Below are positions 10,542-28,640 of a stretch of 64,000 nucleotides of DNA, piece after piece. Under the pieces are notes generated by a model. It was not told where the DNA came from. It worked only from the letters and a program-made list of their open reading frames with translations, and searched no databases. The DNA is from Rhizobium sp. R634. GTDB taxonomy: Bacteria > Pseudomonadota > Alphaproteobacteria > Rhizobiales > Rhizobiaceae. The DNA is taken from contig NZ_LOKW01000005.1 in the NCBI RefSeq assembly GCF_002211305.1, forward strand, positions 124,001 through 188,000, given 5' to 3'. Position 1 is the first letter of the stretch, and each line of letters starts with the position of its first letter. The position numbers were made by a program, and so were the translations under genes.

Positions 10542-10555
10542 TGTTCTCTCTCCCC

Positions 10556-11917
10556 TCAAGCAACCGCGACAGCCGGAGCGGCTGCGGCGGAAAGGGTGCG
10601 ATGGATGGATTCGGCCGCGTCGCGGCCATGGGCAACGGCGGAAACCGTGAGATCCTCGCCGCCGAAGACGCAGTCGCCGCCGGCCCAGATGCCGTCGAGC
10701 GAGGTGCGGCCTTCGACATCGACCGCGATTCGGCCGGATTCCATGCGCAGGGAGCCGAGCCCTGAGGCTTCAAAGGTCTGGCCGATCGCCTTGAAGATCT
10801 GGTCGGCGGCGATCACGCCAGTTTCGCCTGTGCCGACGAGGCGGCCGTCCAGGATTTTGGTATATTCCACTTCGATGGCGGCGACCTTGCCGTCCTGCGA
10901 CAGGATTGACTTCGGCGCCAGCCAGTGACGGATGATGACACCCTTGGAGCTTGCCAGATCCTGCTCATATTCCGAAGCGTTCATGTGCTCCTTGCCGCGG
11001 CGGTAGCAGATCGTCACCTCCTCGGCGCCGAGGAGCTTTGCCTGCACGGCGGCGTCGATCGCCGTCATGCCGCCGCCGAGAACGACGACGCGGCGGCCGA
11101 TGGCGATATCGCTCTTGTTTTCAGCCTGGCGGAGTGCGGCGATGAAATCGACGGCATCGTCGACGCCGGCAAGATTCTCGCCCTCGATGCGCAGGGCGTT
11201 GACGCCGGCAAGGCCGATGCCGAGGAAGACGGCGTCATATTGCGCCTGCAGATCGGCAAGCGAAAAGTCGCGGCCGAGAAGGGCGCCGTGGCGCACATCG
11301 ATGCCGCCGATGGACATGATGTAATCGACTTCCTGCTGGGCGAAGTCGTCGACCGTCTTATAGGTGGCGATGCCGTATTCGTTGAGGCCGCCGGATTTTT
11401 CCCTGGCGTCGTAAATCGTCACGGAATGGCCTTTCACCGCCAGGCGATGGGCTGCGGCAAGACCAGCCGGGCCGGCGCCGACGACGGCGATCCTCTTTCC
11501 TGATGCTTCGGCCCTGACATAGAACTGCTTGCCGGCCTGCATGGCGGTGTCGGTGGCGTAACGCTGCAGGCGGCCGATCTCGACAGGCCGTTCTTCGGCG
11601 GTGTTGCGCACGCAGGCCTGTTCGCAGAGCTCTTCGGTGGGACAGACGCGGGCGCACATGCCGCCGAGAATGTTCTGATCGAAGATCGTCTTTGCCGAAC
11701 CGAGCGGATTGCCGGTCGAAATCTGGCGAATGAAGAGCGGGATGTCGATCGAGGTGGGACAGGCCGTCATGCACGGCGCGTCATAGCAGAAATAACAGCG
11801 ATCGGCGGCGACCAGCGCCTCATGATTGTCGAGGCGCGGATGCAGATCGGAAAAATTAGCTTCATACTCGGCGGGGGTAAGCCGGCCGGCATGAATCCCA
11901 GTTTCCAGTCGTTCCAT
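10556..11917 (-). CDS. preT: Dihydropyrimidine dehydrogenase subunit PreT (NAD/FAD, Fe-S)
   Basis: This 453-residue glutamate-synthase-small-chain-like flavoprotein has N-terminal Fe-S cysteines (CYFCYDAPCMTACP, then CARVCPTEELCEQAC). It has an FAD-binding GAGPAG motif and a second dinucleotide fold (VVLGGGMTAIDAA). It passes electrons from NAD(P)H to PreA. It is first in a preT-preA operon, and a RutR-like dyad lies 60 bases upstream of the start. The genes for the later pathway steps are not adjacent; the likely amidase is at the left window edge. Confidence 0.95.
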   Translation of the reverse strand: MERLETGIHAGRLTPAEYEANFSDLHPRLDNHEALVAADRCYFCYDAPCMTACPTSIDIPLFIRQISTGNPLGSAKTIFDQNILGGMCARVCPTEELCEQACVRNTAEERPVEIGRLQRYATDTAMQAGKQFYVRAEASGKRIAVVGAGPAGLAAAHRLAVKGHSVTIYDAREKSGGLNEYGIATYKTVDDFAQQEVDYIMSIGGIDVRHGALLGRDFSLADLQAQYDAVFLGIGLAGVNALRIEGENLAGVDDAVDFIAALRQAENKSDIAIGRRVVVLGGGMTAIDAAVQAKLLGAEEVTICYRRGKEHMNASEYEQDLASSKGVIIRHWLAPKSILSQDGKVAAIEVEYTKILDGRLVGTGETGVIAADQIFKAIGQTFEASGLGSLRMESGRIAVDVEGRTSLDGIWAGGDCVFGGEDLTVSAVAHGRDAAESIHRTLSAAAAPAVAVA

Positions 11918-11977
11918 TGAAGTTCCCTCATTATTGGTAAACGGCCTGTGGGGAAAGCGTAACTCAGGTTTAAAAAT

Positions 11978-11993
11978 TTATCAAACGGTAAAA
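11978..11993. promoter_or_regulatory. Second RutR-like operator dyad, upstream of preT
   Basis: On the minus strand this reads TTTACC-GTTT-GATAAA, a 6-4-6 dyad (five of six pairs). The surrounding 17 bases agree at 14 positions with the reverse complement of the dyad near 592-607. It sits about 60 bases before the preT start codon, where a repressor would act. Confidence 0.6.
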
Positions 11994-12146
11994 TTTTGAG
12001 GATTCGCCGTTGATTTCCATCCGGCAAGTCTTTGTTTTTAAAGGGTGGAATTTGCCTTCTTCGAATCCGAGATTCACGCTGGAACGCGGGAAGGACAGAG
12101 CCTCAGAAAAAAGATTTAAAAAAAGTCGATTTTTTTCGAATGCCCG

Positions 12147-12171
12147 GGAACCAATCCTGAGCTTCCTCGTT
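12147..12171 (+). promoter_or_regulatory. EcfG (GSR sigma factor) promoter of a candidate small RNA
   Basis: GGAAC at 12147-12151, a 16-base spacer, then CGTT at 12168-12171: a full match to the rhizobial RpoE2/EcfG consensus. It points into a gene-free region that ends in a strong plus-strand terminator at 12268-12300. The predicted start point is about 12178. Confidence 0.65.
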
Positions 12172-12177
12172 ATTGCG

Positions 12178-12300
12178 ATATCCGGATGGTGATCGCATCG
12201 ACCCAACATGCGCGCCCCCAACCCACTATCCGGACGTACTCACGGTCCCCTCCCGGTGAGTGAAGACAGCCGGTGCGCCGCCCTCGCACCGGCTGTTTTT
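12178..12300 (+). ncRNA. Candidate EcfG-dependent small RNA, about 120 nt
   Basis: No plausible protein gene runs from the promoter at 12147-12171 to the intrinsic terminator. The transcript would fold into a hairpin at 12239-12260 (CTCACGG / CCGGTGAG) whose loop reads TCCCCTC. The terminator hairpin (stem AGCCGGTGCG / CGCACCGGCT at 12268-12294, followed by GTTTTT) also has a C-rich loop. C-rich loops can pair with Shine-Dalgarno sequences. In promoter type and layout it recalls Caulobacter GsrN, and in loop content the rhizobial alpha-r sRNAs such as alpha-r14/NfeR1. I cannot tell whether it belongs to one of these families. The 5' end is estimated. Confidence 0.55.
12268..12300 (+). terminator. 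Rho-independent terminator of the candidate sRNA
   Basis: A perfect 10-bp GC-rich stem with a 7-base loop is followed by GTTTTT on the plus strand. It lies just beyond the stop of the minus-strand kinase (12326). The minus side lacks a T run, so the plus-strand reading is favoured; it may act in both directions. Confidence 0.75.
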
Positions 12301-12325: not shown

Positions 12326-13339
12326 TCACACCCGCTTGAGGATTTCAAATTCGGTTTCGGGAATGGTCAGGCGATATTCGATGCGGCCCGGCACGAGGTT
12401 CAGCTCCGCCTTGCCGTTGACCGAGGAGGGCACGACCCGCTCGAGCACGGTGCGGCCGAAGCTGTTGTCGCTGAATTCATGAACTTCCAGCTGATCCTGC
12501 AGCACCTCAGCCCAGGCGATCTCGATCGCCCTTCTTTCGCCGATCATCGCTTCGCGGCAGTTGAGTGTGATGGAGGCGGCGCCGCCCGATATGGCGCCAT
12601 AGGAAGCGGAATTGACGATCAGTTCATGGAGAGCAAGGCCGAGATGCACCGCGGCATTCGGCGTCAGATGGGCGTTGATGCCGTAGATCGGCATGGAGCC
12701 GGCCGTTTCCGGCCAATAGGGAGCGAACTGCTTTTCGGCGAGTTCGAAAAGGAAAGCGCCGCGCCAGCTCGAATCGGTGATCAGATCCTGCGAGTTGGAA
12801 AGCGACTGCAGCCGTCCGCGGAATTTGCCGAGGAAGCTGTCGAGGGAGAGTGTGTTGCGCGCCGTCTGCGTGGCAATGCCCTGAATGATGGCGAGAAGGT
12901 TCTTCGAGCGGTGCGAGAGTTCGCGCAGCAGCGATTTCAGCACTTTTTCGCGATGCCGGCTCTCGGTGACTTCGGCCATGACCGACAGAAGCCCATAAGT
13001 GCCGCGTTCGCCGGTGCGCTGGATCTTCAGCTCGTAGGTGCGCATTTCGCCGTCGACGTCGATCTCGACCTCGGCATTGTTGGGAATGCCGGTTTCCAGC
13101 ACCTTGTGTTTCAGCGCCGTCAGATATTGCCCATGGGCATCGCCGAAAAGCGCGGCGTCGCTGCCGCCGGGCGCAAAGAGCGCGGCGAAATACGGCGGCA
13201 GATTTTCGGCGTAGAAGATCGAAAGCCGGGCGTCCTGGCAGAGGACGGAAATCCCGGCGCTGCCGAGCGCGCGTTCCATCATTGCGGCCTTGCCTTCGAA
13301 TGCGAGAGGCATGCCGGACAACGGTTCAGTCGTATTCAC
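12326..13339 (-). CDS. HRXXN-type sensor histidine kinase of the general stress response
   Basis: This 337-residue soluble protein has a PAS-like N-terminal domain (about 20-130 of the chosen start). A HisKA_2-type dimerisation domain carries His143 in SHRSKNLLAII (HRXXN signature), and the ATPase domain has the N-box HELIVNSASYG. It resembles the RsiC/PhyK kinases that phosphorylate PhyR. The chosen start is GTG 13339, preceded by AAGGAAAGG; an upstream ATG at 13429 would add 30 unconserved-looking residues. It lies next to phyR on the same strand and has its own EcfG-type promoter. Confidence 0.85.
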   Translation of the reverse strand: MNTTEPLSGMPLAFEGKAAMMERALGSAGISVLCQDARLSIFYAENLPPYFAALFAPGGSDAALFGDAHGQYLTALKHKVLETGIPNNAEVEIDVDGEMRTYELKIQRTGERGTYGLLSVMAEVTESRHREKVLKSLLRELSHRSKNLLAIIQGIATQTARNTLSLDSFLGKFRGRLQSLSNSQDLITDSSWRGAFLFELAEKQFAPYWPETAGSMPIYGINAHLTPNAAVHLGLALHELIVNSASYGAISGGAASITLNCREAMIGERRAIEIAWAEVLQDQLEVHEFSDNSFGRTVLERVVPSSVNGKAELNLVPGRIEYRLTIPETEFEILKRV

Positions 13340-13467
13340 TCGGCCGCCTTTCCTTGTGACATCTCGAACGCCGCTAGAGAGAGCGCACTTCCAGAAATCG
13401 CCTGCCAACTCTAGAACAAAGCGCTGCAAAAACCGTTAAAGCCGCCGGGGCGTCCCGGCAGCACCGG

Positions 13468-13493
13468 AACGCTTGCTTTGACGATTTGGTTCC
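13468..13493 (-). promoter_or_regulatory. EcfG-type promoter of the kinase gene
   Basis: On the minus strand GGAAC (13493-13489), a 17-base spacer, then CGTT (13471-13468). This fits the RpoE2/EcfG consensus with 17 spacing. Transcription would begin near 13460, about 120 bases before the kinase start, suggesting feedback on the sensor. Confidence 0.6.
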
Positions 13494-13513: not shown

Positions 13514-14308
13514 TCAGGCGGCTACTCTGGTCGATTCATTGAAGAAAAGAGCCTGACTGATCAGGGCTTTGACCATGTCGGGATTGAAGGGCTTGGTGAC
13601 GAGGAAAGTCGGTTCCGGGCGCTCGCCGGTCAGCAGCCTTTCCGGGAAAGCGGTGATGAAAATGACCGGCACGCTCGCCGTCTTGAGGATGTCGTTGACC
13701 GCGTCGATACCGGAACTGCCGTCGGCAAGCTGGATGTCGGCCAGCACCATGCTCGGCTTGGTCTTGTTGTAGAGCGCCACGGCCTCGGCATGGGTGCGGG
13801 CAATGCCGGTGACGCGGTGACCGAGGCTTTCGACCATCTGCTCGATATCCATGGCGATCAGCGGCTCGTCCTCGATGATCATGATATCGGTCGCAACTTG
13901 GCGGGAGATTTCCTGCGAGGCCTTGTCGAGCAGACGCATGACGTCCTGTTCGTCGAGCTCCAGGATTTCCGCGATTTCGGCGACGCGGAAATTCTCCACG
14001 GCGGCGAGCAGGAAGGCCTGGCGGGCGCCCGCCGAAACCTTGGAAAGATTGAGGGTGGCACGTTGCTCCCAGGCGTAGGGAGAGGTCGGCTCTGGAATCT
14101 GGATCGCGGTGGAACCAAACAGTTGAGTAAACAGTTTGTAGAGTGCAACCCGGTCATTCGCCGTATCCGGGAAAATCGAAAGATCGGCGATAATGGCTTC
14201 AAGAACGGCGGCGACATAAGCGTCGCCCGATGTCTGAGTGCCGGTAAGGGCGCGGGAATAGCGACGCAGATAAGGAAGGTGCGGCGCAATTCGAGTAGAA
14301 AGTGTCAT
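13514..14308 (-). CDS. phyR: PhyR anti-anti-sigma response regulator
   Basis: This 264-residue protein has an N-terminal sigma-like domain (about 1-130; SRALTGTQTSGDAYV, VAEIAEILELDEQDV). The C-terminal receiver has the acidic pair in IIEDEP, phospho-acceptor Asp in MVLADIQLADG, and Lys in TKPF. When phosphorylated it binds NepR and releases EcfG. The start ATG 14308 follows CGGGAG; an ATG at 14344 is unlikely. It is divergent from nepR-ecfG and has a full EcfG promoter on its own strand. Confidence 0.97.
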   Translation of the reverse strand: MTLSTRIAPHLPYLRRYSRALTGTQTSGDAYVAAVLEAIIADLSIFPDTANDRVALYKLFTQLFGSTAIQIPEPTSPYAWEQRATLNLSKVSAGARQAFLLAAVENFRVAEIAEILELDEQDVMRLLDKASQEISRQVATDIMIIEDEPLIAMDIEQMVESLGHRVTGIARTHAEAVALYNKTKPSMVLADIQLADGSSGIDAVNDILKTASVPVIFITAFPERLLTGERPEPTFLVTKPFNPDMVKALISQALFFNESTRVAA

Positions 14309-14353
14309 AAAGGGCTCCCGTATGCAGGCCGGTCTTGGCTTCAATGAGCGGTT

Positions 14354-14378
14354 AACGCCGCCTTGATAAAAAAGTTCC
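14354..14378 (-). promoter_or_regulatory. EcfG promoter of phyR
   Basis: On the minus strand GGAAC (14378-14374), a 16-base spacer, then CGTT (14357-14354): a full consensus match 46 bases before the phyR start codon. It implies positive autoregulation. Confidence 0.75.
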
Positions 14379-14412: not shown

Positions 14413-14574
14413 ATCCAAGCCGACATGAAAGGGCGTAACATTTTGACCCACGCAGCAGCAGATGCCCGCGACATTGATAGTAGAACACTCAATATCGACG
14501 GCATTGGCGGCTGCTGAAATCATGGTTATTCCACACTGCGCCCCTGGAACAGATAACGGCGAGAAGACGAGTTG

Positions 14575-14781
14575 ATGACTACACGCAATAAAGAAGCAGC
14601 GGAGCAGCGGAAGCTCGAGCTGCGGGCAAGCGACATCCTGGACCCGAACAATCAGATCGGCGTCAAGCTGCGGTCTCTCTATGCTGCCGCGCAGGATGAG
14701 GCGATTCCCGATCGTTTTCTCGACCTTCTCGAAAAGCTCGACCATGCCGAAATGATGGCTTCTGCCAAGATGGCCGAATAG
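14575..14781 (+). CDS. nepR: NepR anti-sigma factor
   Basis: This 68-residue protein has the NepR core IGVKLRSLYAAAQDEAIPDR followed by FLDLLEKLD, two amphipathic helices that clamp EcfG. It holds the sigma factor until PhyR-P takes it away. I chose ATG 14575; the TTG three bases earlier is a possible start. It sits 10 bases before ecfG as an operon and diverges from phyR. Confidence 0.95.
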   Translation: MTTRNKEAAEQRKLELRASDILDPNNQIGVKLRSLYAAAQDEAIPDRFLDLLEKLDHAEMMASAKMAE

Positions 14782-14791
14782 GATCGCCCGC

Positions 14792-15349
14792 ATGGAAGAC
14801 AAAGTGCAACCCAGCTTTAAGCGGGAATTGCTGGCGGCCCTCCCTAGCCTTCGCGCATTCGCAATCTCCCTCATCGGCCGGCATGACCGGGCAGACGATC
14901 TCGTTCAAGACACCATCATGAAGGCCTGGGCCAAGCAGGACCATTTCGAGATGGGCACCAATATGAAGGCCTGGCTCTTCACGATCCTGCGCAACGAGCT
15001 TTACAGCCAGATGCGCAAGAGCGGCCGCGAGGTGCAGGACAGCGACGGGCTGTTCACCGAATCGATGGCGATGCACCCCTCGCAATATGGCGCGCTCGAC
15101 CTGCAGGATTTCAAGAAGGCGCTCGACCAGTTGCCGCCCGACCAGCGCGAAGCGATCATCCTCGTCGGCGCCTCGGGCTTCTCCTACGAAGAGGCAGCCG
15201 AAATCTGCGGCTGCGCCGTCGGCACCATCAAGAGCCGCGTGAACCGCGCGCGTCAGCGCCTGCAGGAACTGCTGCAGATTTCAGGCGAGGCCGATTTCGG
15301 CCCGGACGCGACCTCTGCGCCGCTGACGTCGAAGGCATTTGCGTTTTGA
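14792..15349 (+). CDS. ecfG: ECF sigma factor EcfG (RpoE2), general stress response
   Basis: This 185-residue ECF sigma factor has region 2 at about 10-75 (DRADDLVQDTIMKAWAKQD, with NMKAWLFTILRNELYSQMRK). Region 4 is at about 107-165 (LDQLPPDQREAIILVGASGF, with YEEAAEICGCAVGTIKSRVN). It directs RNA polymerase to GGAAC-N16/17-CGTT promoters, several of which occur in this window. It is co-transcribed with nepR and followed by a strong terminator. Confidence 0.96.
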   Translation: MEDKVQPSFKRELLAALPSLRAFAISLIGRHDRADDLVQDTIMKAWAKQDHFEMGTNMKAWLFTILRNELYSQMRKSGREVQDSDGLFTESMAMHPSQYGALDLQDFKKALDQLPPDQREAIILVGASGFSYEEAAEICGCAVGTIKSRVNRARQRLQELLQISGEADFGPDATSAPLTSKAFAF

Positions 15350-16536: not shown

Positions 16537-16561
16537 AACGTGCCGGACGCCGAAAAGTTCC
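16537..16561 (-). promoter_or_regulatory. EcfG promoter of the DUF883-holin-like operon
   Basis: On the minus strand GGAAC (16561-16557), a 16-base spacer, then CGTT (16540-16537): a full consensus match. Transcription from near 16530 would cover both small envelope genes. Confidence 0.75.
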
Positions 16562-28615: not shown

Positions 28616-28640
28616 AACGACGCCGCCTGGCCGATGTTCC
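28616..28640 (-). promoter_or_regulatory. EcfG promoter of the DUF1236 gene
   Basis: On the minus strand GGAAC (28640-28636), a 16-base spacer, then CGTT (28619-28616): a full consensus match at a suitable distance from the start at 28582. Confidence 0.75.

Follow-up and report, generated by a model that had tools for sequence, protein, structure and literature searches.

The 64,000-nt stretch of Rhizobium sp. R634 DNA analysed here (the window) carries, at 12177-12300 on the plus strand, a small RNA (sRNA) gene that, judged by its sequence and gene order, is the ortholog of ReC64, an sRNA already known from R. etli CFN42. What appears from genome comparison to be new is that other genera of the Rhizobiaceae have relatives of it, preceded by an EcfG-like promoter, together with their range, predicted structure and loop conservation.

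Locus, promoter and identity with ReC64

The sRNA gene is preceded by an EcfG promoter (GGAAC-N16-CGTT) at 12147-12171 (+), with GGAAC at 12147-12151 and CGTT at 12168-12171. As a preliminary description of this DNA had said, the promoter points into a gene-free stretch; its match to the motif is exact and is also conserved. The start of the sRNA, around 12177, is approximate and inferred from promoter spacing, and the predicted transcript runs for about 124 nt to 12300. The nearness to a kinase-phyR-nepR-ecfG cluster, likewise claimed before, is confirmed by Pfam, which places all four genes on one side: a convergent HWE histidine kinase (tcrY ortholog; 12326-13429, -; PF07536, 2.4e-22), the PhyR response regulator (13514-14344, -; PF22029, PF22233, PF00072), the NepR anti-sigma factor (14572-14781, +; PF18557, 5.8e-15), and the EcfG sigma factor (EcfG1/RpoE4 ortholog; 14792-15349, +), which is assigned by Pfam and shares 99% identity with its R. 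etli CFN42 counterpart. The other flank is occupied by a two-subunit dihydropyrimidine dehydrogenase-like pair, recognized by Pfam and here named preT and preA. Upstream of preT, at about 11960-12000, there is an AT-rich element (TAACTCAGGTTTAAAAATTTATCAAACGGTAAAATTTT) that recurs almost unchanged at several other Rhizobium loci and is likely a regulator or promoter site for this pyrimidine-degradation pair.

A single EcfG motif is weak evidence because five GGAAC-N15-17-CGTT sites occur in the window against 1.19 expected; it is conservation that makes the evidence strong. GGAAC-N16-nGTT stands in the same position at all 37 Rhizobium loci (36 by pattern, the 37th by reading), and the -10 element is CGTT in 32 of them and AGTT in 5. 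Other EcfG-type promoter matches in the window are found at 13468-13493, 14354-14378, 16537-16561, and 28616-28640, all on the minus strand, the first three lying upstream of the kinase gene, phyR, and the gene for a DUF883 protein, respectively.

By DNA search, the sRNA is present in 37/37 Rhizobium genomes and in none of 24 genomes from other families in the order. The same kind of search finds one copy in the genome of R634, where a model search returned the locus plus three weak matches, one of them the palindromic terminator read on the opposite strand; such opposite-strand terminator matches also make up the tail of a further model-search list. A search of plasmids for the sRNA gave no match. 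A core of 58 bases recurs exactly in 28 named stretches, including those of R. johnstonii 3841 and R. phaseoli ATCC 14482, though the records closest to the window could be absent from this count.

In R. etli CFN42 (G009; NC_004041.2), the sRNA is 92% identical over 185 nt, and the order of ecfG, nepR, phyR, kinase, preT, and preA is that of the window, with proteins 92-99% identical. ReC64 is defined by the intergenic region beyond tcrY-phyR and by an EcfG1 promoter, and both are found here. The two are identified with each other because CFN42 has the sRNA in the same intergenic region beside tcrY-phyR, with the same neighbours. The difference lies in length, published as 88 nt for ReC64 versus about 124 nt predicted here for the full form; otherwise, nothing of note separates them.

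ReC64 has been detected in R. etli on tiling arrays and Northern blots (Vercruysse 2010; Jans 2013), and its start mapped by 5' RACE agrees with the EcfG motif (Jans 2013). Its promoter fusion was abolished in ecfG1 and double mutants and stood at 82% in the ecfG2 mutant, and in E. coli each of the two sigma factors activated it (Jans 2013). The earlier proposal that the locus, next to the core of the general stress response (GSR), encodes an sRNA induced by stress from an EcfG promoter is borne out, through the R. etli ortholog, by Northern blots, 5' RACE, and promoter fusions. ReC64 is reported as over-expressed under saline shock, with SigA and RpoH promoters, not EcfG, predicted for it in the same paper (PMC4167512), and the RNA is described as present in exponential phase too (Vercruysse 2010). 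On Northern blots, the 88 nt expected from the array were accompanied by an extra, larger, unexplained band (Vercruysse 2010; Jans 2013), a published length that is not clearly 124 nt; possibly the full transcript gives the larger band and a processed form the 88-nt one. Among open-licence PubMed Central papers, no function assigned to ReC64 was found in print.

Predicted fold and C-rich loops

The segment 12176-12303 folds at -55.3 kcal/mol with a z score of -4.7, a value equalled by none of 200 shuffles, and the predicted fold consists of three hairpins. Hairpin 1 (12181-12234, +) is built of an outer stem (12181-12191/12224-12234) and an inner stem (12194-12198/12208-12212), with a C-rich internal loop that includes CCCCC at 12215-12219. 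Hairpin 2 (12238-12261, +) presents the loop TCCCCTC at 12246-12252, which is complementary to GAGGGGA. The intrinsic terminator (12267-12300, +) pairs 12267-12277 with 12285-12295 around the loop CCGCCCT and ends in TTTTT at 12296-12300. The preliminary description was right about a perfect hairpin followed by TTTTT, but the stem has 11 pairs and not the 10 bp given there; the hairpin at 12267-12300 is absent from the list produced by a terminator scan of the window. Its two C-rich loops need a similar adjustment: TCCCCTC does form a predicted hairpin loop, whereas the second C run sits in an internal loop in this species.

An alignment of the Rhizobium loci (37 rows, 32 distinct) lends support from covariation to a three-hairpin structure that exposes C-rich runs. 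Standard pairs fill 99.5% of the cells in the 29 predicted pairs, and 7 of the 29 have two-sided changes; none of 500 shuffles attains either value, and pairing is much lower when the structure is slid. These changes fall in the outer stem of hairpin 1 (2 of 4 pairs counted), in its inner stem (1 of 4), and in the terminator (4 of 13). The paired bases of hairpin 2 are invariant within Rhizobium, and its stem is therefore without covariation there. Another covariation measure, that of further pair types, is reached in 11 of 500 shuffles. In the loop of hairpin 2, TCCCCTC stays unchanged in 36 of the 37 genomes and gains an extra C in the 37th. A small protein was also considered and rejected: a 25-codon frame is present in the closest relatives (e.g., L001-L010), and the frame or its length is lost in others.

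The hairpin end lies 30 nt from the stop codon of the kinase gene on the facing strand, and A runs precede the hairpin in several relatives, such that it could work both ways. The whole feature could accordingly be taken as no more than the 3' UTR or terminator belonging to the convergent kinase gene, its promoter being a chance match. We regard this as scarcely credible, given that the promoter and two further hairpins are conserved, that the interval from phyR to the sRNA holds no kinase match in the Sinorhizobium loci examined for neighbours, and that a transcript was shown in R. etli (Jans 2013; Vercruysse 2010).

Relatives across the Rhizobiaceae

A covariance model without the promoter gave matches in 61 of 394 family genomes, spread over 17 of 109 genera, Rhizobium included. 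Of the models used, R1 excludes the promoter; a few rows of R2 hold the last bases of the -10, and R2 leans on sequence as it has only 16 base pairs. The count of 61 is likely a lower bound because a second model found the sRNA in 32 of 33 genomes of a further genus, Sinorhizobium, the missed genome being 70% complete. Sinorhizobium terangae (L099/L347), S. fredii NGR234, and Shinella zoogloeoides are among the bearers.

Neighbours were examined in 35 of the 53 non-Rhizobium matching genomes, and in 33 of these 35 the sRNA adjoins ecfG-nepR-phyR; the two loci away from these genes are among the weakest matches. The looser pattern GGAAC-N16-NNTT occurs just upstream at 46 of 47 other-genus loci, the 47th having N17 before CGTT, and at 30/30 Sinorhizobium loci; among control windows, it was found in 1 of 235 for the first set and in 4 of 150 for the second. 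Left out of the 47 were G073 and G155 (L148, L149; no GSR genes), G354 (terminator only), G315, G365, and G370; G315 is L322 in the Sinorhizobium set, and some genomes (e.g., G429) belong to both sets.

In the clade of Shinella and its relatives (L059, L123, L124, L131, L133-L135, L137-L141, L143-L146), both main stems are of other sequence, yet loop 1 keeps runs of the CCCCC type and hairpin 2 keeps UCCCC(C)U. The minimum free energy (MFE) folds of two of its members, L124 and L144, are without hairpin 2. PhyR of this clade is only about 54-58% identical to the PhyR of the window. In the MFE folds computed for 45 diverse members, every one shows a CCCC-bearing hairpin loop, 43 have at least two loops with CCC, and 35 have at least three. 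In the family-wide comparison, suggested earlier as a check on promoter, loops, and terminator, the promoter recurs, as do the GSR neighbours where flanks were examined, the C-rich loops are kept, and the stems are replaced. This comparison shows that selection preserves the C-rich loops more than the stems.

The extreme constancy of the loops in the 37 Rhizobium genomes would fit a protein-binding site as well as a pairing site, and the RNA might bind a protein or sponge another RNA rather than pair with ribosome-binding sites. That other genera swap the stems and still keep the C runs fits pairing, and we know of no such partner; binding or sponging is in our judgement an unlikely explanation.

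Membership in alpha-r14/NfeR1, which the preliminary description had entertained, is not supported by the Rfam covariance search, in which no model reached its gathering threshold anywhere in the window. The eight sub-threshold matches at the locus include no alpha-r family, as far as the library holds those models. Lacking an Rfam match, alpha-r14/NfeR1 and other Rfam families were rejected. The alpha-r14/NfeR1 RNAs also have several hairpins with loops able to pair with Shine-Dalgarno sites, but they occur in several copies per genome, versus the single copy of ReC64 found here by DNA search. We take RFMSmelA075/A099 of PMC3927594 to be their like. Another possible parallel is SmelC601 of Sinorhizobium meliloti, which is about 127 nt long and has an RpoE2 promoter; microsynteny with its relatives in S. 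fredii and S. medicae is extensive. The Sinorhizobium relative, as seen in S. terangae (L099/L347), may be SmelC601, to which it is likened by this description, by the same strand, and by a similar chromosomal coordinate.

GsrN, proposed mechanism and candidate targets

The sRNA had been suggested as a possible rhizobial counterpart of GsrN of Caulobacter crescentus, with which it shares a stress sigma factor promoter and a C-rich 5' loop. According to passages of Tien 2018, GsrN homologs usually lie at the GSR locus, though not in C. crescentus itself. An EcfG/SigT promoter and a place at the GSR locus are both found here, and the C-rich 5' loop is a hairpin loop such as CGCCCCCA in many other-genus members and an internal loop in Rhizobium. 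With reference to Jans 2013, the same passages use promoter, expression, and position to predict that R. etli has a counterpart of GsrN (Tien 2018); although they name no ReC64, position and citation suggest that ReC64 is meant. The ReC64 RNA differs in having three hairpins with C-rich loops, and no homology with GsrN or conserved katG pairing was found.

True homology would imply a 5' processed form whose 5' C-rich loop pairs with the katG leader and activates katG. GsrN is also marked by the stability of its processed 5' form and by an effect of Hfq; for ReC64, two bands are reported (Vercruysse 2010). In its favour are the promoter class, the place at the GSR locus, and the 5' C-rich region held in common (passages of Tien 2018), together with a 7-8 nt match to loop 1 that lies around -60 in four of the 22 Rhizobium katG leaders compared (the 23rd genome was excluded because its katG is cut off) and single 7-nt matches in the katG leaders of L203 (loops 1 and 2; near -85 to -89) and L180 (loop 2, -62). 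The -60 match is missing from the other 18 leaders, however, and katG was rejected as a conserved target. Moreover, katG of R. etli is controlled by EcfG2 and ReC64 mainly by EcfG1 (Jans 2013), and BLASTn matches to GsrN are reported only in Caulobacteraceae (Tien 2018). Searches of the order and class with models of this RNA gave only weak, terminator-like matches outside the family (L151-L156), none with a GSR protein match within 1.5 kb, and under strict filters 289 class genomes yielded no credible match. Homology with GsrN is improbable. A NepR search of 142 class genomes, meant to reach diverged relatives at other GSR loci, had a match in 19. Position, promoter, and C-rich loop fit the suggested counterpart, whereas homology and a conserved katG target are unsupported. 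A species-level katG link is possible, given that the four matching leaders include those of R634 and R. etli. Whole-RNA duplexfold of the sRNA with katG was uninformative because internal structure is ignored.

ReC64 is instead probably a trans-acting antisense RNA on G-rich ribosome-binding sites, forming a post-transcriptional stress arm with targets that are as yet putative. Under stress, PhyR would bring about the release of EcfG1 from NepR, and EcfG1 would transcribe an RNA of about 124 nt to the intrinsic terminator, where the EcfG1 dependence and the start come from R. etli and the full length is predicted. The RNA would fold into three hairpins exposing C-rich runs. The most likely partners of these runs, above all of UCCCCUC, are ribosome-binding sites rich in G, for instance GAGGGGA. 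Such pairing would alter how a set of mRNAs is translated, in most cases repressing it, and would act as a post-transcriptional arm of the general stress response.

GAGGGGA located 3-9 nt before an ATG has 84, 89, and 79 matches in three Rhizobium genomes, where the reversed pattern has 17, 9, and 10, all of these being pattern matches and not genes. Twenty of the 84 sites in R634 were examined, chosen for the same string in the R. etli list (15 exact, 5 near), and a frame of at least 138 codons follows only 10 of them. By their look, the genes at these 10 sites presumably include those for an ABC transporter binding protein, gamma-glutamyltransferase, metK, propionyl-CoA carboxylase, urtA, and an ABC ATPase. 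The AGAGGGG ribosome-binding site of urtA is kept in 19/19 Rhizobium genomes (L288-L306) with varying spacers; rows L307-L312, from other families, are uncounted as their matches begin inside the gene. Similarly, TTCTTTGAGGGGAATCCC is invariant before metK in 19/19 Rhizobium genomes (L258-L276), while the upstream DNA differs. It should be noted that the abundance and conservation of GAGGGG are only suggestive because the same bases serve the ribosome, with no need for an sRNA. Two candidates were rejected. A similar GAGGGG...CCC precedes metK in a genome of another family with no sRNA match found (G046; L279), so a separate cis cause is likely at metK, whose leader motif is possibly a cis-acting element. 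As for preA, GAGGGGA is present at 10551-10557 (-) in the window and in only 1 of 21 relatives with a readable start, the other 20 having GAAGGGGAG or similar.

We hold an extension of this antisense reading to a Rhizobiaceae-wide sRNA family headed by ReC64 as quite possible while stopping short of calling it probable: the family would travel with ecfG-nepR-phyR, carry up to three separate C-rich antisense loops on interchangeable stems, serve the stress response as its general arm for silencing translation, and, having arisen independently, resemble GsrN by convergence and not by homology. An sRNA is kept under a stress promoter in several Rhizobiaceae genera, and its conserved C-rich loops name the nucleotides to mutate; whether rhizobia possess a post-transcriptional stress arm thereby becomes a testable question.
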